Part shown: positions 22,751 through 29,116 of the stretch, piece after piece
Numbering within the stretch: position 1 is the stretch's first letter
Layout of the letters: the number at the start of each line of letters is the position of its first letter
Assembly: GCF_002797975.1 (NCBI RefSeq)
Contig: NZ_PGET01000001.1
Span: 1,488,001 to 1,552,000, forward strand
DNA: 64,000 nt
Direction: 5' to 3'
Source: [Clostridium] celerecrescens 18A
GTDB lineage: Bacteria; Bacillota; Clostridia; Lachnospirales; Lachnospiraceae
The notes under the pieces: model-generated
Told to the model about the DNA's origin: nothing
What the model saw: only the letters and a program-made list of their open reading frames with translations
Database searches by the model: none
Program-made: the position numbers and the translations under genes

Positions 22751-23032
22751 TTGAAAACTTTTCCCAAACCTTTAACTGCGCGAGAAGAACGAGAGTGTCT
22801 GGAACGATACCAGGAAGGGGATCAGGAGGCGAGAGCCACACTCATCGAGCGAAATATGCGTCTAGTGGCACATGTGGCAAAAAAATATCAGAATACAGAT
22901 TATGATATGGAAGATCTTCTTTCCGTAGGTACCATAGGACTTATAAAAGCCGTCAATACCTTTCACCCGGACAGAGGCTCCAGACTAGCCACTTATGCGG
23001 CCAAGTGTGTGGAGAATGGTATCCTATCATAA
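22751..23032 (+). CDS. sigK: Sigma-K N-terminal half, interrupted by element
   Basis: Codons 1-89 of the late mother-cell sigma factor, then four element-derived codons (GILS) and TAA. Start TTG 22751 has AAGGTGG 6 bp upstream; no other start exists in frame back to the stop at 22727. The protein begins MKTFPKPLTAREE, so, as recalled for C. difficile sigma-K, there is no N-terminal pro-sequence. Region 1.2/2 is intact through RNMRLVAHVAKKYQNTDYDMEDLLSVGTIGLIKAVNTFHPDRG and RLATYAAKCVEN. The reading frame resumes at 28751. Alone, this 93-residue piece lacks region 4 and cannot recognise promoters, so the gene is off until excision. Confidence 0.95.
   Translation: MKTFPKPLTAREERECLERYQEGDQEARATLIERNMRLVAHVAKKYQNTDYDMEDLLSVGTIGLIKAVNTFHPDRGSRLATYAAKCVENGILS
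23015..23026 (+). other. Left junction (attL) of the sigK intervening element
   Basis: AATGGTATCCTA reads AAT GGT ATC CTA in the sigK frame. The right junction at 28748-28759 is AATGAAATCCTA. They share AATG and ATCCTA and differ at the two bases between. Because serine recombinases need identical central dinucleotides, crossover must lie in AATG or in ATCCTA. The B. subtilis skin element, as I recall, recombines at AATGA in the same gene position. Confidence 0.85.
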
Positions 23033-23055
23033 CGGCTCCAAACGGGACGAAACAT

Positions 23056-23098
23056 GGAACCGGTGTATGCCTGCGGCAGCAGGGCATACACCGGTTCC
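23056..23098 (+). terminator. 16-bp perfect hairpin just inside the left junction
   Basis: GGAACCGGTGTATGCC (23056-23071) pairs completely with 23083-23098 around an 11-nt loop. No T tract follows, so it is a weak candidate for intrinsic termination of the truncated sigK transcript. It lies 30 bp inside the element. Confidence 0.5.
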
Positions 23099-23104
23099 TG
23101 ACGT

Positions 23105-23227
23105 TTATATATTAAATTGACCTTCACGGCTGCAGATGAATTCTGCTTTGCAATTACATTTCTTCTTCTGTGCTGTACCTTTCCACCAATAATCCCCCAG
23201 CAAAGAATATTTAAATTTGTCCAACAT
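23105..23227 (-). CDS. Possible 40-residue protein, unrecognised
   Basis: A minus-strand ORF starting MLDKFKYSLLGDYWWKG and ending with a cysteine-containing CNCKAEFIC segment. There is no convincing Shine-Dalgarno upstream. It lies inside the element between the hairpin and the hydrogenase operon. Its composition is protein-like, but evidence is thin. The rest of 23033-23267 shows no clear promoter for the hydrogenase genes. Confidence 0.25.
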   Translation of the reverse strand: MLDKFKYSLLGDYWWKGTAQKKKCNCKAEFICSREGQFNI

Positions 23228-23267
23228 ATATATTGATAAATAACAAATTTGAGAAGGGGGCAAGGGT

Positions 23268-23729
23268 ATGGTGAAGTTAATTGCTATCGGCAATCGTTTT
23301 ATGAAGGATGACGCCGTAGCAATTAAAGCTGCCGAAATCTTGGAAGACCGGCTGATCCGCCAGGATATTCATGTGATCGTTGGTGAAACCGATTTTCAAA
23401 ACTGCTTTTATTTACTGGATGAGGATGACTTTGTTTTCATCCTTGATGCACTTTCTTCTGGAGCAGAGCCGGGAAGCGTTCATCTGACCAGCCTAGAAGA
23501 TGTGATGTCACAGCCTTCCTTATTCTCCATGCAGCATGATTTAAGCATGGTGGAACTCATGAAGCTGTATGGCAGTCAATTTAAGGGATACTTGATGGGC
23601 ATAGAAATCTACGAAATCGGCTTTGGCCAGGAACTAAGCACTGTTTTAAGAGATAAACTACCCCAGATCTGCAGGGTAATTGAATGCGCAATTAAAAAAA
23701 TCATATCGGAGGAAATCACGAATGCATGA
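23268..23729 (+). CDS. Hydrogenase maturation protease (HupD/HycI family)
   Basis: 153 residues. This endopeptidase removes the C-terminal tail of the [NiFe] large subunit after nickel insertion. The family N-terminus KLIAIGNRFMKDDAVAIKAAEIL is present, followed by GETDFQNCF, where the Glu/Asp region binds nickel. FVFILDALSSGAEPG holds the conserved Asp, and QHDLSMVELM holds the metal-binding His. The substrate is presumably the large subunit at 25429, which retains a 14-residue tail. RBS AAGGGGG 7 bp before ATG 23268. It is the first gene of the cargo operon, an unusual place for a protease that usually follows the structural genes. It overlaps the next ORF by 8 bp. Confidence 0.88.
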   Translation: MVKLIAIGNRFMKDDAVAIKAAEILEDRLIRQDIHVIVGETDFQNCFYLLDEDDFVFILDALSSGAEPGSVHLTSLEDVMSQPSLFSMQHDLSMVELMKLYGSQFKGYLMGIEIYEIGFGQELSTVLRDKLPQICRVIECAIKKIISEEITNA

Positions 23730-23979
23730 TACGTTCCTAAATCAAAATATATTTGAAGCGATTGTTGAAATATGCGGGGAGAATTTTATCGAGAAGATTT
23801 TTTATTTAACCATTACGGTACATACAAACAGCCATATAAGTGAAGACAGCCTCCGTGACTATTTTTCAGAAAGAAATAATACGCTTATTGGAGACTGGAC
23901 AAACATATTGGTACTTAAACGGGAAATAGAGCCGCTTACTGCGGTTATAGACGAAATTGAAGGAGAGATATCCCAATGA
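23722..23979 (+). CDS. HypA-like protein lacking the zinc domain
   Basis: 85 residues from ATG 23722 (GGAGG upstream), overlapping the protease gene. It starts MHDTFLNQNIFEAIVEIC, resembling the MHE...L...IVE start of the nickel chaperone HypA. LTITVHTNSHISEDSLRDYF and REIEPLTAVIDEIEGE also fit the HypA N-terminal fold. The two CxxC zinc motifs that should follow are absent, and the gene stops where they would begin. His2, the nickel ligand of HypA, is present. It may be a minimal nickel-delivery or subunit-specific factor. Assignment is by pattern and context, not by a strong motif. Confidence 0.5.
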   Translation: MHDTFLNQNIFEAIVEICGENFIEKIFYLTITVHTNSHISEDSLRDYFSERNNTLIGDWTNILVLKREIEPLTAVIDEIEGEISQ

Positions 23980-24044
23980 TAAGGCCTGGTTGATGACCGG
24001 CACAAGTTTCAATCATTCAGTAATTTATTATGGGAGGTTATTTC

Positions 24045-24515
24045 ATGGAATTAAATATGTTTTTGAATTACATCGGGAACTGCGTCAAGCATATAAACGA
24101 GGATATAGAAAGACTACATTCCAACCAGTACAACAATAACGTTGTGCTGGATCATTTGAGCAGTGAAGTGATCATGCTGGAAAGTCATATCAAATATTTT
24201 AGTCAGTCAAATCAAGTAGACATGGAAGAAACACAATATCCATATCAGGCCATCCATGCAAATCAAGCCGAGGAGGAAGTACCAAGATACTTTACCCTGG
24301 AAGAGTTATCCCGTTATGATGGGAAGAACGGAGCCCCGGCTTATGTAGCAGTAAACGGAGTGGTGTATGATGTGACAAATAATTCTGTGTGGAAAGGAGA
24401 CAGCCATTTTGGTCTTAATCCTGGAAATGATTTATCAGTTAATTTTGCAACATGTCATCCGGGAGCAATGGTCCTGACCAGATTACCGATCATCGGCTAT
24501 TTGGCTACAGAGTAA
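24045..24515 (+). CDS. Cytochrome b5-like heme/steroid-binding domain protein
   Basis: 156 residues from ATG 24045 (GGGAGG 8 bp upstream). The N-terminal 75 residues form a helical, hydrophilic region with no signal peptide. From about residue 80 onward is a cytochrome b5-like domain of the clostridial short type: YFTLEELSRYDGKNG, AYVAVNGVVYDVTN, and the loop HFGLNPGNDLS...CHPGAMVLTRLPIIGYL. Histidines fit the heme-binding positions. In the hydrogenase operon it is a candidate electron acceptor or redox partner, which is inference. It ends 5 bp before the proposed small-subunit start. Confidence 0.72.
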   Translation: MELNMFLNYIGNCVKHINEDIERLHSNQYNNNVVLDHLSSEVIMLESHIKYFSQSNQVDMEETQYPYQAIHANQAEEEVPRYFTLEELSRYDGKNGAPAYVAVNGVVYDVTNNSVWKGDSHFGLNPGNDLSVNFATCHPGAMVLTRLPIIGYLATE

Positions 24516-24520
24516 AGTTG

Positions 24521-25426
24521 GTGAAATGTTTGGATTATGGAAGCTTTGAATGTCCTTACCAGGAAAGCAGGCTAAAAACAACGGAAAGTCTTGTGAACAG
24601 GGTAAGGGATGAAATCGTTGGAGAGACGCGGCAAAGACGGAATCTTGTCTGGCTTGAATTAAATGGCTGTTCTGGTAATACCATCTCTCTTTTGGACGGG
24701 CAAAATCCGGATTTTAAGTATCTGCTCACTCAAATGACCAATTTTACATACAGCAACAGCCTGATGAATTCTTATGGAAACAAGGCCATGGATCAGCTGT
24801 TCGACGTGATAGGAAGGGATTATATCCTTGCCGTGGAAGGTGCCGTATCTTTAAAGGACAACGGTTCTTATAATATCATCGGCCGGCACAACGGCAGGGA
24901 GATTACCGGGTATGAAGCGGTTAAAAGATTGGGGGAACAGGCGGCCCATGTGATTGCAGTAGGAGCCTGCGCTTCACACGGAGGCGTGTCGGCGGCAAGA
25001 CCCAATCCAACCCAGTGTGTGGGAGTACAAGAGGTTTTGCAGAGAAAAGTGATTAAATTAACAGGCTGTCCGTGTCATCCGGACTGGTTTATGGGGACAC
25101 TGGCCTATCTGATATTATATGGGGACCCCCCGCTTGATAGCAGGGACCGTCCCTTGATGTTTTACAGCATTACCATTCACGACAGATGTCCAAGGAGATC
25201 TTATTTTGACAGCGGTATCTTTGCAACGAAGCTCGGGCAGGAAACCTGTATGTACATGATGGGCTGTAAAGGTCCGGTTACCCAGATCGACTGTCCCATT
25301 CGACAATGGAATGGGCATGTCAACTGGCCCATAGGAGATGATTCGCCCTGCATCGGATGTGCTCAGTTTGGATTTCCTGATGCAATGGAGCCTTTTATTA
25401 CCTATGACACCATGAGAGGGGAGTAG
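24521..25426 (+). CDS. [NiFe] hydrogenase small subunit, atypical proximal cluster
   Basis: 301 residues from GTG 24521. The start is uncertain: ATG 24452 would overlap the previous gene by 64 bp without an RBS, and TTG 24518 is possible. The small subunit carries the Fe-S chain between active site and electron partner. The proximal-cluster motif reads LNGCSGNTISLL (about residues 48-59), where the usual second Cys is Asn. GACASHGG and GCPCHPDWF supply the other ligands. The C-terminus has medial and distal ligands in IHDRCPRRSYF, ETCMYMMGCKGP, IDCPIRQWN and SPCIGCAQFGFPD. No twin-arginine signal or membrane anchor is seen, so it is predicted cytoplasmic. Confidence 0.88.
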   Translation: MKCLDYGSFECPYQESRLKTTESLVNRVRDEIVGETRQRRNLVWLELNGCSGNTISLLDGQNPDFKYLLTQMTNFTYSNSLMNSYGNKAMDQLFDVIGRDYILAVEGAVSLKDNGSYNIIGRHNGREITGYEAVKRLGEQAAHVIAVGACASHGGVSAARPNPTQCVGVQEVLQRKVIKLTGCPCHPDWFMGTLAYLILYGDPPLDSRDRPLMFYSITIHDRCPRRSYFDSGIFATKLGQETCMYMMGCKGPVTQIDCPIRQWNGHVNWPIGDDSPCIGCAQFGFPDAMEPFITYDTMRGE

Positions 25427-25428
25427 AT

Positions 25429-26805
25429 ATGGCGGAGAGAATAACCATCAATCCTGTTACCCGAATCAGCGGCTTCATGGAAATTGATGCCGATATCGAA
25501 GAGCGGTCAGTGGTGGATGCAAAAATGAGAGGTTTGATGTTCCGTGGATTTGAAAAAATGCTTCAGGGCAGAAGTCCTTTTGATGCTGTTTATTTTACAC
25601 AGCGCATCTGCGGTATCTGTTCAACCGCACATTCCATGGCTTCTGCTCTTGCTCTGGAAGAAGCATTGAACATTGTCCCCTCTGAACAGGGAAGGTATGT
25701 AAGGGACCTTCTTCATGCCTGCGAATTCCTGCAAAATCATCTAAGGCATTTTTACCAGTTTACCTTGCCGGATTTTGTTAAGCTGCCTGAGGATTATCCG
25801 CTGTTTAAGACAGATCACAATGATTACAGGCTACCAAAGAACATAAACGATAAAATGGTAAACGATTATTTTGAATCCCTTCAGTTCAGCAGGGCTGCGC
25901 ATCAGATGCTGGCCATTCTTGGAGGAAAGGTTCCTCATAATCACGGAATATTCATTGGAGGGATCACTTCGCCGATATCTGCAGATAAGATCATTACCAT
26001 AAAATCAATCCTATATAACATAGGACAGTTCATCATTGAAAAAATGGTTCCGGACGTATACACAATTGGTACCTTTTATCCAGAGTATTATCATTACGGT
26101 GGAGGCTATGGCAACTTACTGACCTATGGAAGCTTTAACCATTATAAAAATTTGGGGACGCTCTATGTGGATCCTCTTGTTTATTCCAATGGACAGACAT
26201 CCCCCTTTGATCCTGTACTTATAACCCAGGAAGACGAATACGCCTGGTTCAATGAAAATGATGAACCGGACAGAAATAAATCCCAGGCATATTCCTGGAT
26301 AAAAGCGCCGAGATACAATAATATCCCTTATGAGGTAGGGCCGCTGGCAAGGCAGTGGCTCTCCGGCGAGTACAGAAATGGGATCTCTGCCATGGACCGG
26401 ACCATTGCAAGAGTGCTGGAAGCTAAGAAAATTGTGGAAATCATGCAAACCCTTATAGATAATCTGATCCCGGGAGTATCCATGCAGAGGGAAAATGAGA
26501 TTCCTGTGCAGGCATCGGGAAAAGGACTGGTGGATACGACACGGGGAGCCCTGGGCCATTGGCTGTATATTGACAACAGTAAGATAGCCTTTTACCAGAT
26601 CATAACCCCGTCTGCATGGAATTTGTCAACACAGACAAATGGAATGAAGGGAACCGGAGAACAGGCACTGATGGGGGTACCTGTGAAAGATGTAACTACA
26701 CCTGTGGAGATCGGAAGGATCATACGGTCGTTTGATCCCTGCGTGTCCTGTGCTACCCATGTTTTCTTAAGCGGGAAGTATATGAATACAATTCAGGTTG
26801 TGTGA
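25429..26805 (+). CDS. [NiFe] hydrogenase large subunit
   Basis: 458 residues, 2 bp after the small subunit. It binds the NiFe(CN)2CO center. The L1 motif is RICGIC (Cys61, Cys64) and the L2 motif is DPCVSCATH (Cys438, Cys441), giving all four ligands. A 14-residue tail follows His444 (VFLSGKYMNTIQVV), marking a precursor that needs the maturation protease encoded at the start of this operon. The N-terminal signature is TRISGF rather than the common TRIEGH, an unusual change next to the active site. It is a complete gene in a group 1-like heterodimer. HypB-HypF needed for cofactor assembly are not in the element and must come from elsewhere. Confidence 0.93.
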   Translation: MAERITINPVTRISGFMEIDADIEERSVVDAKMRGLMFRGFEKMLQGRSPFDAVYFTQRICGICSTAHSMASALALEEALNIVPSEQGRYVRDLLHACEFLQNHLRHFYQFTLPDFVKLPEDYPLFKTDHNDYRLPKNINDKMVNDYFESLQFSRAAHQMLAILGGKVPHNHGIFIGGITSPISADKIITIKSILYNIGQFIIEKMVPDVYTIGTFYPEYYHYGGGYGNLLTYGSFNHYKNLGTLYVDPLVYSNGQTSPFDPVLITQEDEYAWFNENDEPDRNKSQAYSWIKAPRYNNIPYEVGPLARQWLSGEYRNGISAMDRTIARVLEAKKIVEIMQTLIDNLIPGVSMQRENEIPVQASGKGLVDTTRGALGHWLYIDNSKIAFYQIITPSAWNLSTQTNGMKGTGEQALMGVPVKDVTTPVEIGRIIRSFDPCVSCATHVFLSGKYMNTIQVV

Positions 26806-26954
26806 AGCTCTTCCATAAGAGCCTGTTTTTGGTCATTCGGGCAGGAAAGCTGCTGGATATATTGAAGGACAGCCTGACTATGCAGGAGTGCAGCTTTTTT
26901 TCTCAATTCTTTTCTGTCTTCTTCTGTTTTGGGCTGATATACGATCATATTCAT
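26793..26954 (-). CDS. Small protein divergent from the recombinase (candidate control factor)
   Basis: 53 residues on the minus strand from ATG 26954, starting MNMIVYQPKTEEDRKELRKK and rich in charged residues, predicted mostly helical, ending in an acidic tail. An in-frame ATG at 27002 would add 16 residues. The reading frame converges on and overlaps the end of the hydrogenase large-subunit gene by 13 bp. It is divergently arranged with the recombinase gene about 110 bp away. I recognise no family. Position and size resemble recombination directionality factors of serine integrases, but that role is only a hypothesis. Confidence 0.5.
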   Translation of the reverse strand: MNMIVYQPKTEEDRKELRKKAALLHSQAVLQYIQQLSCPNDQKQALMEELHTT

Positions 26955-27066
26955 AACACGGACCTGATATAGACTGTTATTATAATGTATGTTGCCTCCC
27001 ATGTCCTGTATGTTTGGATTAAGGGAGCGGAACGCAGCGCTATGCTTTAGTGAGGAGGAAGATTGG

Positions 27067-28752
27067 GTGGAAGCCGGGATAGAAAGGTTTGCGATTTATT
27101 CAAGAAAATCAAAATTTACCGGAAAAGGAGAGAGCATCGGAAACCAGATCGAGCTGTGCAGACAATACATTTCAGCACATTATGGAGCGTGTTTCGCTGA
27201 CAGCGCCTGTGTATATGAGGATGAGGGGTTTTCCGGAGGAAACCTTGAACGGCCTCAGTTCAAAGTCATGATGCAGGAAGCAAAAAAAAAGAAATTTACG
27301 GCGGTCGTATGCTACCGTCTTGACCGTATAAGCCGTAATATCGGTGATTTTGCAAATCTGATCGAAGAGCTTAATGAACTTCATATTTCCTTTATATCCA
27401 TAAAAGAGCAATTTGACACATCCTCACCCATGGGGCGGGCCATGATGTACATTGCTTCTGTTTTCTCTCAACTGGAGAGAGAGACAATCGCGGAGCGCAT
27501 CCGGGATAATATGCTGGAGCTCTCTAAAAGCGGAAGATGGCTGGGAGGGAATACGCCTACGGGTTATACGTCGGAGAGCGTATCCTCCGTGACCATAGAC
27601 GGTAAGGTGAAAAAAGCATTTAAGCTAAAGATGATTCCGGAAGAGGCAAATCTTGTCAAGTTGATTTTTGAGAAATTCTTAGAAACAGGTTCACTGACTC
27701 AGACGGAAACCTATTTGCTCCAAAATGGTCATAGGACAAAATATGGCCGCCTATTCAGCCGCTTTGCAATAAAAGGAATATTGACCAATCCGGTTTATAT
27801 GATCGCAGATCAGGAGGCCTATGAGTATTTACGGGAAAAGAATGTGGATCTGTTTGCAGAAAGAGAAGCCTTTGACGGAAACCATGGAGTGATTGCATAT
27901 AACCGTACCCTTCAAAGGGCCGGAAAAACTCACGAGATGAAAGTTATGGAAGAATGGATCGTGGCAGTTGGAAAGCATAAGGGAGTGATATCCGGCTCCA
28001 TGTGGGTCAATGTTCAGATGCAGCTGGAGCAAAATAAATCAAAAAATTACCGGAAACCCCGCAGTAATGTGGCGTTGCTGTCCGGAATCCTCTTTTGTGG
28101 CGGCTGCGGCGGTTATATGCGTCCAAAGCTGTCAGGCCGGTACAATGACGAAGGGGAACAGATCTATTCTTATTTATGCACCATGAAGGAAAAAAGCCGT
28201 ATGAAATGCTGCGGAATGAAGAACGTAAATGGAAATATGCTGGATCAGATGGTCCTGGAAGAAATCAAAAAGATATCTGTGGATTGGAGTGAATTTCAAA
28301 AGCAGCTTTGCCGGAGCAAAAAGGCAGTGGAAGAAAGCAAAGAGGAAGTGGAATGGGATAAATCCCGTTTAAAGGATGAACTGAAGAATATGGAAGGAGA
28401 AATAACCGGACTGGTGGCCTCCCTTGGAAAAGCCGGAGGGACCGGGGCGGAAGGATATATCATACAGCAGATCGAAGGGCTTCATAAAAGAAAAGGGGAA
28501 ATGGCACAGCGGTTATGGGAGCTTTCCCTTGACGTAGGAAATAAAGAGCTTTCCGATTCGGAATTACAGTTCATAAAGCAGACCCTGTCTTCCTTTCAAC
28601 ATGTGATCAGCCTTATGGATGTCCGGCAAAGGCGGGCAGCGGTCCGCACTTTTGTGGATAAGGTCATATGGGATGGTGAGAATGTTCATCTGTATCTGTT
28701 TGGCTCGAAGGTGCCTGAATTACCAGAGCCGCAAGGTGACTATAGCAAATGA
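27067..28752 (+). CDS. Large serine recombinase (SpoIVCA-like)
   Basis: 561 residues from GTG 27067, with GAGGAGG 7 bp upstream; ATG 26989 is in frame but has no RBS. The N-terminal resolvase domain has RFAIYSRKS with the catalytic Ser at residue 15, then DEGFSGGNLERPQF, YRLDRISRN and FSQLERETIAERIRDNM. A recombinase domain follows (about 150-270, LGGNTPTGYTSE, TKYGRLFSRFAIKGILTNPVY). A zinc ribbon (CGGCGGYMRPK...CCGMKN, about 345-390) and a coiled coil (about 410-500) complete the architecture. It is the enzyme expected to excise the element from sigK. Its TGA stop (28750-28752) lies in the right junction, so excision can replace it. Confidence 0.94.
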   Translation: MEAGIERFAIYSRKSKFTGKGESIGNQIELCRQYISAHYGACFADSACVYEDEGFSGGNLERPQFKVMMQEAKKKKFTAVVCYRLDRISRNIGDFANLIEELNELHISFISIKEQFDTSSPMGRAMMYIASVFSQLERETIAERIRDNMLELSKSGRWLGGNTPTGYTSESVSSVTIDGKVKKAFKLKMIPEEANLVKLIFEKFLETGSLTQTETYLLQNGHRTKYGRLFSRFAIKGILTNPVYMIADQEAYEYLREKNVDLFAEREAFDGNHGVIAYNRTLQRAGKTHEMKVMEEWIVAVGKHKGVISGSMWVNVQMQLEQNKSKNYRKPRSNVALLSGILFCGGCGGYMRPKLSGRYNDEGEQIYSYLCTMKEKSRMKCCGMKNVNGNMLDQMVLEEIKKISVDWSEFQKQLCRSKKAVEESKEEVEWDKSRLKDELKNMEGEITGLVASLGKAGGTGAEGYIIQQIEGLHKRKGEMAQRLWELSLDVGNKELSDSELQFIKQTLSSFQHVISLMDVRQRRAAVRTFVDKVIWDGENVHLYLFGSKVPELPEPQGDYSK

Positions 28753-28759
28753 AATCCTA
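28748..28759 (+). other. Right junction (attR) of the sigK intervening element
   Basis: AATGAAATCCTA, read AAT GAA ATC CTA in the sigK frame. The same bases contain the recombinase stop TGA in another frame. See the left junction at 23015-23026. Confidence 0.85.
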
Positions 28760-29116
28760 ATGCTTCTTCGTGCAAACAAGAAATATTCAAAAGAGGTTTC
28801 TTTGTTTGAACCCATTGGCGTAGACAAGGATGGAGAGACTGTAAGTTTAGTAGATGTCATTGAAATGGAAAATAAGGAGACTCTGGAATCTATAATTTTA
28901 AAACAGGATATTAAGGAACTGTATGAGGCCTTTGACAGTTGCCTTAAGGAAAATGAAAAAACCATAATCGGAATGAGGTACGGTCTCCATGGAGGGAAGG
29001 AGTATACACAGCGGGAGATTGCGGATGTCATGGGGATATCCAGATCCTACGTATCCAGGCTGGAAAAAAAGGCTTTGGAGCGGTTAAGAGACGAACTTAA
29101 AAAGAATTGTATTTAA
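28751..29116 (+). CDS. sigK: Sigma-K C-terminal half
   Basis: Codons 90 onward of sigK: 121 residues, EILMLLRANKKYSKEVSLFEP to a TAA stop. They contain regions 3 and 4, including the -35 recognition helix YTQREIADVMGISRSYVSRLEKKALERL. There is no start codon or RBS of its own at the junction; an ORF reading in from 28619 is only antisense-like overlap with the recombinase. Joined to the N-terminal half it gives 210 residues, close to mature sigma-K. It becomes expressed only after the element leaves. Confidence 0.94.
   Translation, partial: EILMLLRANKKYSKEVSLFEPIGVDKDGETVSLVDVIEMENKETLESIILKQDIKELYEAFDSCLKENEKTIIGMRYGLHGGKEYTQREIADVMGISRSYVSRLEKKALERLRDELKKNCI

Follow-up and report, generated by a model that had tools for sequence, protein, structure and literature searches.

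In [Clostridium] celerecrescens 18A (genome G000, a finished single contig of 5.27 Mb, 99.97% complete), we analysed a stretch of 64,000 nucleotides (positions 1,488,001-1,552,000, hereafter the window) in which the sporulation sigma factor gene sigK is interrupted after codon 89. The insert is 5,733 bp long, measured between the AA dinucleotides of its two cores at window positions 23015 and 28748. It encodes a [NiFe] hydrogenase with a maturation protease and a cytochrome b5-like protein, a large serine recombinase, and an unannotated 53-amino-acid open reading frame (ORF) on the opposite strand (Table 1). By its anatomy, namely the interrupted sigK, a serine recombinase of its own and a shared core predicted to restore the reading frame, it is a skin element, as an initial annotation of this DNA had proposed; the coordinates and the AA-to-AA distance also agree with the split at codons 89/90 and the insert length given there. 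The element is probably excised in the mother cell by its own recombinase with the 53-residue product as helper, an event that would rejoin sigK and leave the hydrogenase operon on a circle. The loss of these genes from the mother-cell chromosome, which the initial annotation had also put forward, is upheld here as a prediction from sequence.

Table 1. Features of the sigK element in window coordinates; the last row gives the second sigK insert of four related genomes
Feature	Position	Strand	Remarks
sigK 5' part	22751..23032	+	TTG start, 89 sigK codons, then out-of-gene tail GILS-stop
attL	23015..23039		core AATG (predicted AA crossover dinucleotide 23015-23016); right arm ends CGGCTCC
Hairpin, 16-bp perfect stem, just inside left end	23056..23098		present in six genomes of the G000-like clade (alignment)
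Cargo promoter-like site ATA-N15-CATATATA	23207..23232	+	pattern searches
Hydrogenase maturation protease, HycI/HupD family	23268..23729	+	PF01750 above cut-off; TIGR00072 82.2 bits (cut-off 47.45)
85-amino-acid HypA-like protein (weak)	23722..23979	+	PF01155 E=0.025, 15 bits (cut-off 28.9)
Cytochrome b5-like protein	24045..24515	+	PF00173 29.8 bits (cut-off 23.7); candidate heme ligands H121 and H138 present
[NiFe] hydrogenase small subunit (HydS)	24521..25426	+	Pfam above cut-off; TIGR00391 228.8 bits (cut-off 179.5)
[NiFe] hydrogenase large subunit (HydL)	25429..26805	+	PF00374 330.9 bits (cut-off 25.8); RxCGxC and DPCxxC ligands intact
53-amino-acid ORF, candidate recombination directionality factor	26793..26954	-	unannotated; antisense, beside recombinase
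Promoter-like site of 53-amino-acid ORF	26984..27011	-	ATA-N17-CATACATT with GGACA in spacer
Large serine recombinase	27067..28752	+	561 amino acids from GTG; longest ORF from 26989; PF00239, PF07508 and PF13408 above cut-offs
attR	28725..28751		left arm AGAGCCG.. to core AATG (AA 28748-28749)
sigK 3' part, region 4	28748..29116	+	read from core codon AAT; NF004471/TIGR02846 positions 113/111 to 231/226
Second sigK insert (relatives)	L118:437-8715; L120:505-8913; L121 258-8535; L122:471-7475		L121 on reverse strand

The 5' part of sigK matches TIGR02846/NF004471 over model positions 24/26 to 114/116. The initial annotation had named an intact second sigK as a point to check. None occurs elsewhere in the single-contig genome, where the remaining matches to the two halves are at most 51% identical; five of these were classified with NCBIfam models as SigE (1188383), two RpoD-type factors, SigG and SigF. 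When joined, the halves score 293.4 bits on the SigK model NF004471 (cut-off 252) and 291.5 on TIGR02846, and lower on the SigE models (243.7 and 232.3 bits). The joined frame opens merely 7 codons upstream, so that it appears to leave no room for a pro-sequence, and the start of the TIGR02846 match at position 24 is consistent with its absence. A link between the splitting of sigK and the missing pro-sequence was rejected, as G046, which has an intact sigK, also seems short of room judging by the length of its open frame.

The ends of the element support site-specific recombination between the two cores. The left site reads AATG-GT-ATCCTA.. and the right site ..GCAAATGAAATCCT; as initially noted, the ends agree in AATG-2nt-ATCCTA and the recombinase gene runs to the right junction, its stop codon sitting in the right core. 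AA is common to both ends in all 27 elements compared (26 with ends on one contig or on adjoining stretches, plus G029), and the bases that follow vary between elements (AATG, AACG, AAAC); AA is therefore the likely crossover dinucleotide. When the arms of 14 representative elements are placed end to end, as they would lie on a circle, they form a quasi-palindromic dyad centred on AA in which 216 of 336 positions pair, compared with 57-106 at centres shifted by 1-6 nucleotides (for one representative, G029, the ends come from separate contigs). Left and right arms also covary: the outer arms have 142 matches with their own partner, a value reached by 0 of 20,000 re-pairings. Joining at AA gives a sigK frame that is uninterrupted at the junction in each of the 26 elements for which both ends are available, and the junction peptide of the joined protein is ENEILM or a near variant. 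The recombinase itself matches PHROG 95 (integrase). A switch of its C-terminus upon excision was considered and rejected: although its stop codon sits in the core, a stop is formed anew in many relatives.

Large serine recombinases need a partner protein for excision (PMC5595907), an example being CD1234 (PMC5025042). Next to the recombinase, on the opposite strand, each of the 22 genus elements readable at this position has an ORF of 53-62 amino acids, the minimal elements included. In G033, G067, G172 and G194 a relative of 58-64 amino acids is found a short way in from the left end, and another occurs in the left part of the G032 element. The ORF has no Pfam family above cut-off, and a profile search retrieved 397 proteins, the best 120 of which have no Pfam domain or informative name. 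Our genus sample consists of 25 Lacrimispora or Lacrimispora-like genomes and our family sample of 200 genomes, one per genus. A single strong copy, at the element, is present in 22 of the 25 genus genomes (it is missed in G200, G208 and G214), with an additional match (E=9e-4) in G212. Among the family genomes seven carry the ORF, and six of these have a split sigK with the ORF inside the element (G000, G032, G033, G067, G172 and G194). The association is strong (Fisher p=7e-9 on 6/1/3/190), where split denotes the nine family genomes recognised as such and the remainder were not all inspected singly.

Upstream of the 53-amino-acid ORF, ATA-N17-CATA with GGACA in the spacer occurs in 22/22 genus elements and in three of five from other genera; the combination is found in 22 of 4,502 windows of 130 nucleotides from the same loci, these sites included. 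We take GGACA to be the core of a SpoIIID site, and SpoIIID itself scores above cut-off in all 25 genus genomes. Its association with sigK elements and its sigma-E/SpoIIID-like promoter site make the ORF the likely directionality factor. Its membership of the TnpW family was considered and rejected, there being no Pfam match to TnpW. A lone relative of the ORF lies in G124 at L129:1501-1668, and the 16 kb examined there contain no related recombinase.

The initial annotation had also suggested comparing the sigK loci of relatives for intact, empty and hydrogenase-bearing versions. None of the 25 genus genomes has an intact sigK: 22 have both halves, G200 and G214 have the N-terminal half alone (in both, the contig stops within the element), and no match was found in G208, which is 67% complete. 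HydL is present in 17 of the 25, always in the element or as the element: in 14 genomes the element is contiguous between the sigK halves, in G213 and G215 it touches one half on the same contig, and in G205 the contig ends at both cores. The simplest version, about 2.65 kb, holds only the recombinase, the 53-amino-acid ORF and the b5-like gene (G209, G210), and a second hydrogenase-free version adds an alpha-galactosidase-like gene, PF16499 (G201, G221, G222). The version in the window recurs in G204, G206, G207, G216, G218 and G219; nine genomes combine galactosidase and hydrogenase, some of them having an AraC-like gene as well (G202, G203, G205, G211, G212, G213, G215, G220, G223); and G217 has a full operon with hypFCDE and the galactosidase. 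The large serine recombinase, the b5-like protein and the 53-amino-acid ORF are constant parts, present wherever the element is readable; the rest of the cargo is fluid. The initial description of a hydrogenase cargo is thus accurate for the window, where the [NiFe] operon is present, but the hydrogenase is not among the constant parts. In the species collection, 11 of 26 hydrogenase loci are linked to sigK by gene content (one of them, L021, by having the same length as the G205 contig), and no half of sigK occurs in the examined stretches of the remaining 15.

FastTree groups the Lacrimispora HydL sequences (support 0.994) and the b5-like proteins (0.993). A tree of flanking genes separates the genomes without the hydrogenase into two positions: G209 is next to the amygdalina/xylanisolvens group (0.768), and G210 clusters with G201, G221 and G222 (0.937). 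On the plain reading the hydrogenase would have arrived once and been lost twice, each time with retention of the b5-like gene. Several deep nodes are weakly supported (0.45-0.82), an unrooted recombinase tree puts G209 with other genera at 0.46, and other histories may apply, two gains among them.

Traces in assemblies and databases support, but do not prove, that excision occurs. The G205 assembly is broken exactly at both cores into a left flank ending ..GAGAATGA, a stand-alone contig of 7,842 bp that begins AATGATAT.. and ends ..GCAAATGA, and a right flank beginning AATGAGAT... All four contig ends carry AATGA, and overlaps of 5 bp fit the integrated, the excised and the circular arrangement equally well. 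A repeat this short would not be expected to interrupt an assembly by itself, but two competing joins at each core would; a mixture of excised and integrated DNA in the sequenced sample should give just such breaks. Searching proteins with the joined SigK gave 5,034 matches among 7,999 scored candidates, of which the best 120 were listed. Among these best 120 is P0014, an intact SigK of 210 amino acids that has ENEILM at the junction and shares 99.5% identity with the joined SigK predicted for G216. P0048, 96.2% identical to joined SigK of G201, is joined at the same site and still ends like the second insert found in that genome (see below). The four largest of the clusters named Hungatella SigK, which are intact and have 88-89% identity, represent 2,167 contigs.

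Several observations count against excision with the help of this ORF. P0014 would look identical if it came from a strain without the element, and the circle junction had 0 matches in viral_contigs, where a free circle is thus rejected. The joined SigK falls narrowly below the TIGR02846 cut-off (291.5 against 298.65), and the NF004471 cut-off is unspecific, being passed also by the G000 SigE (258.1 bits). In G201, G221 and G222 the joined frame runs into the second insert and ends there. The G223 recombinase (L065) is split into two overlapping frames, either by a frameshift or by a sequencing error. G124 has the 53-amino-acid ORF and a full-length sigK match elsewhere, and of the genomes with split sigK, G029 and G030 lack a detectable copy and G024 has a weak one (E=0.0013).

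The cargo encodes what we infer from its relatives to be a group 1 [NiFe] hydrogenase, and in the window its genes have uninterrupted reading frames. HydL scores 448.5 bits against the NCBIfam equivalog NF033181 (under the cut-off of 600), and its nearest solved structure is the periplasmic [NiFeSe] hydrogenase 5jsu (E=1.3e-96). The hallmarks of group 1 are present, namely RxCGxC and DPCxxC ligands, an iron-sulfur-type small subunit and a maturation protease, and the ligand cysteines are kept in 29-30 of 30 HydL sequences. The enzyme resembles group 1 [NiFe]/[NiFeSe] hydrogenases such as 5jsu in large-subunit homology, CxxC ligands and a HydA-type small subunit; it differs from 5jsu in having cysteine in place of selenocysteine and a small b5-like neighbour, and in that no twin-arginine export signal, usual for the group, was seen in the small-subunit N-terminus, where one motif match (in G000) was taken for the RRNL of the conserved core. 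The ratio of nonsynonymous to synonymous substitution rates (dN/dS) is 0.02-0.10 for HydL (0.05-0.10 in pairs with G000) and 0.04-0.11 for HydS in pairs with measurable dS, several of the dS values being above 1. The HypD of G000 is encoded 0.69 Mb from the element, among hyp genes adjacent to the gene for a large subunit of group-4 type (hypA, hypB and the group-4 label are readings of ORFs). In G217 the sole HypD found in the genome lies inside the sigK element with hypF, hypC and hypE (L059:3739-11715), and the whole hydrogenase system would therefore leave with the circle.

All 31 b5-like sequences aligned, nine operon relatives outside sigK among them, have both H121 and H138 (the contig-cut G200 sequence was left out of the alignment). 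The gene is retained in all six hydrogenase-lacking elements readable that far, including one that is cut by a contig end. This retention where the hydrogenase is gone suggests an independent role for the protein. Its linker contains GPTG-type collagen-like repeats in nine genomes (short in G203) and QPQNGT-type repeats in G200, G201, G221 and G222; collagen-like repeats are reminiscent of spore-surface proteins. The GPTG repeats, which lie between the N-terminal and cytochrome b5 domains, differ in length among close relatives (L045, L046, L052-L054, L057, L062, L065, L066).

The operon appears to have a promoter of its own. We scored as sigma-E-type a -35 element ATA and a -10 element resembling CATAnnnT, 15-17 nucleotides apart. 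CATATAT(A/T) lies within 150 nucleotides of the operon or b5-like start in 23/23 genus elements with this start in hand, and ATA-N15-CATATAWW in 19 of the 23. In 26 loci (489,314 bp, both strands) there are 17 occurrences of the latter pattern. Of these, 13 precede the hydrogenase operon, including the operons of C. punense and C. tunisiense, both outside sigK. Genome-wide, G000 has 52 such sites, compared with 28 for the reversed pattern; 30 of the 52 were inspected and eight downstream proteins scanned. One site lies 15 nucleotides upstream of SpoIIIAA (TIGR02858, 367.5 bits, cut-off 281.3), another upstream of a YlbJ-like protein (152.1 bits, below the cut-off of 304.65). By eye, ATA-N16-CATAAGTA is found upstream of spoIIID in the genus (25 loci), and C. 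difficile spoIIID is reported to use ATA-N16-CATATATA (PMC3789822).

Sigma-E-type expression of the hydrogenase operon in the mother cell is a moderately supported prediction and, given that the operon has its own spoIIIAA-like promoter site, this expression would begin before excision. Pulling the other way are the lack of a -35 element at the cargo site in G200, G201, G221 and G222, the lack of the site upstream of the operon in 13 of the 15 loci outside sigK (one of these loci, L026, is cut before the operon start), the fact that the other six of the eight scanned proteins are not sporulation proteins by their matches, and one in-frame TGA at a tryptophan codon of the otherwise open G219 HydL gene (L061), which is either a young pseudogene or a sequencing error. 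The initial annotation had pictured a metabolic operon parked inside a developmental switch and used by vegetative cells. The location inside the sigK element stands; for the use, the mother cell is the better prediction, because 19 of the 23 genus elements have the sigma-E-like site, as do two Clostridium operons outside sigK.

Taken together, these features outline a possible mechanism. Exchange at the AA cores, flanked at both ends by dyad-forming arms, would restore the SigK frame. The recombinase could be present early and excise only once the 53-amino-acid ORF is made, and the sigma-E- and SpoIIID-like promoter of the latter would restrict excision to the mother cell, in the way that CD1234 does in C. 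difficile. Transcription of the cargo operon would start at its own sigma-E-like site ahead of excision and might continue afterwards; the excised circle may still be readable in the terminal cell. The left-end hairpin could stop sigK transcripts from entering the cargo. Maturation factors may be supplied by the distant hyp set, and the enzyme might either oxidise or evolve H2 in the mother cell, with electrons carried by the heme protein. The loss need not matter, because the mother cell is terminal and the forespore would retain the integrated copy, leaving the lineage with nothing lost. We tentatively hypothesize that the group 1 hydrogenase and its heme-b5 partner form a sigma-E-switched sporulation enzyme built into the sigK switch, with genes that leave as the late sigma factor appears, and that the 53-amino-acid ORF may found a family of directionality factors marking such switches in Lachnospiraceae.

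A somewhat unlikely alternative keeps the same skin element and makes the hydrogenase a vegetative or stationary-phase enzyme, its promoter-like site being independent of sigma-E. It draws on the alpha-galactosidase cargo (PF16499) of related elements, which by eye has TTGCAA-N16-TATAAT-like sites instead, on the sugar ATP-binding cassette (ABC), phosphotransferase system (PTS) and peptide-transport genes named by eye in other genera, and on our first genome-wide test with a broad sigma-E pattern, AATATT-N12-14-CATAYAWW, which was flat (9 sites against 8 reversed) and was discarded. Such an enzyme sits poorly with the concentration of ATA-N15-CATATAWW at the hydrogenase operon in 489 kb (13 of 17 occurrences), with a site shared with spoIIIAA, and with its presence at the two Clostridium operons outside sigK. 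It is distinctly improbable that the element is selfish, with a cargo that is neutral baggage or tied to the survival of the element and a hydrogenase idle in sporulation: the cargo is indeed present, partial or absent among the 25 genomes and one large-subunit gene has a stop, but the low dN/dS of both subunits and the b5-like gene kept in every readable hydrogenase-lacking element speak against it. The idea in the initial annotation that the hydrogenase protects the element from loss is not supported, given the elements that persist without it in two lineages. That the insertion is dead, with sigK broken and sporulation not completed, is hardly credible, for although the G000 assembly has no excised form and the G223 recombinase is frame-shifted, both halves of sigK, like the ends of the element, are conserved throughout the genus, the att arms covary, G205 breaks at both cores and SpoIIID is above cut-off in 25/25 genomes.

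A sporulation-linked hydrogenase in an excisable skin element, the reading we prefer, can be set beside known systems. In C. difficile, skinCd splits a sigK that has no pro-sequence and is excised by the large serine recombinase CD1231 with the small partner CD1234, which is under sigma-E and SpoIIID, while B. subtilis sigma-K has a pro-sequence and its skinBs is prophage-like (PMC5025042). The element described here is like skinCd in the split sigK, the apparent absence of a pro-sequence, the large serine recombinase and a small candidate partner with a sigma-E/SpoIIID-like promoter. It is unlike skinCd in its size of 5.7 kb, its [NiFe] hydrogenase operon and its lack of recognised prophage-type genes; its candidate partner, likened to CD1234 by role, is encoded by a divergent 53-amino-acid ORF adjoining the recombinase. 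A PHROG scan of five element proteins (HydS and the 85-amino-acid protein left out) recognised no phage structural gene; the recombinase matched integrase, invertase and transposase families and HydL one family of unknown function. The B. subtilis skin (SpoIVCA) has the core repeat AATGA and is similar in being sigK-intervening with a short direct-repeat core, and differs in being prophage-like and in the pro-sequence for which sigK here has no room.

The gin element that interrupts gerE in Bacillus cereus ATCC 10987, reported to need a recombinase with an additional factor (GirC, GirX) and to have no phage genes (PMC5595907), is likewise gene-intervening. Since gin, prophage-derived genes count as typical of such elements but not as defining them. 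It differs in its length of 28.6 kb, its three serine recombinases and its gerE target, and is closer to the second sigK insert of relatives. In cyanobacteria the hupL, nifD and fdxN elements are excised in a terminally differentiated cell; there the hydrogenase gene hupL is the interrupted gene, whereas here the hydrogenase is the cargo.

A literature search, mostly at the level of abstracts, returned no description of a hydrogenase in a skin element or in the mother-cell programme. Skin elements are usually described as phage remnants, and this genus keeps a compact one with no recognised phage structural gene. Should the promoter prediction be true, hydrogen metabolism would gain a place in the mother-cell programme and the reasons why such elements are kept would become testable; a mother-cell hydrogenase would also mean hydrogen chemistry confined to one terminal cell. 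Many unannotated sigK switches could be searched for with the antisense ORF as a marker, and it gives them a candidate directionality factor.

Split sigK genes were recognised in nine of the 200 family genomes with differing, often metabolic, cargo (names by eye). The eight further genera (L070-L077, L082, L083) carry two-component genes, transporters, PTS and glycosidase genes, a peptide ABC system, lipoproteins and one insert of 25 kb. The sigK of G149 (L078:2079-2457) has a run of N within the gene and its state cannot be judged. In G222, G201, G221 and G213 a second insert of 7.0-8.4 kb lies in the region-4 helix-turn-helix (..GISRSY / VSRLEKK..), leaving sigK in three pieces. This insert has three serine recombinase stretches, some shortened or broken, together with a polysaccharide deacetylase and a BNR-repeat protein (both tested in G222).

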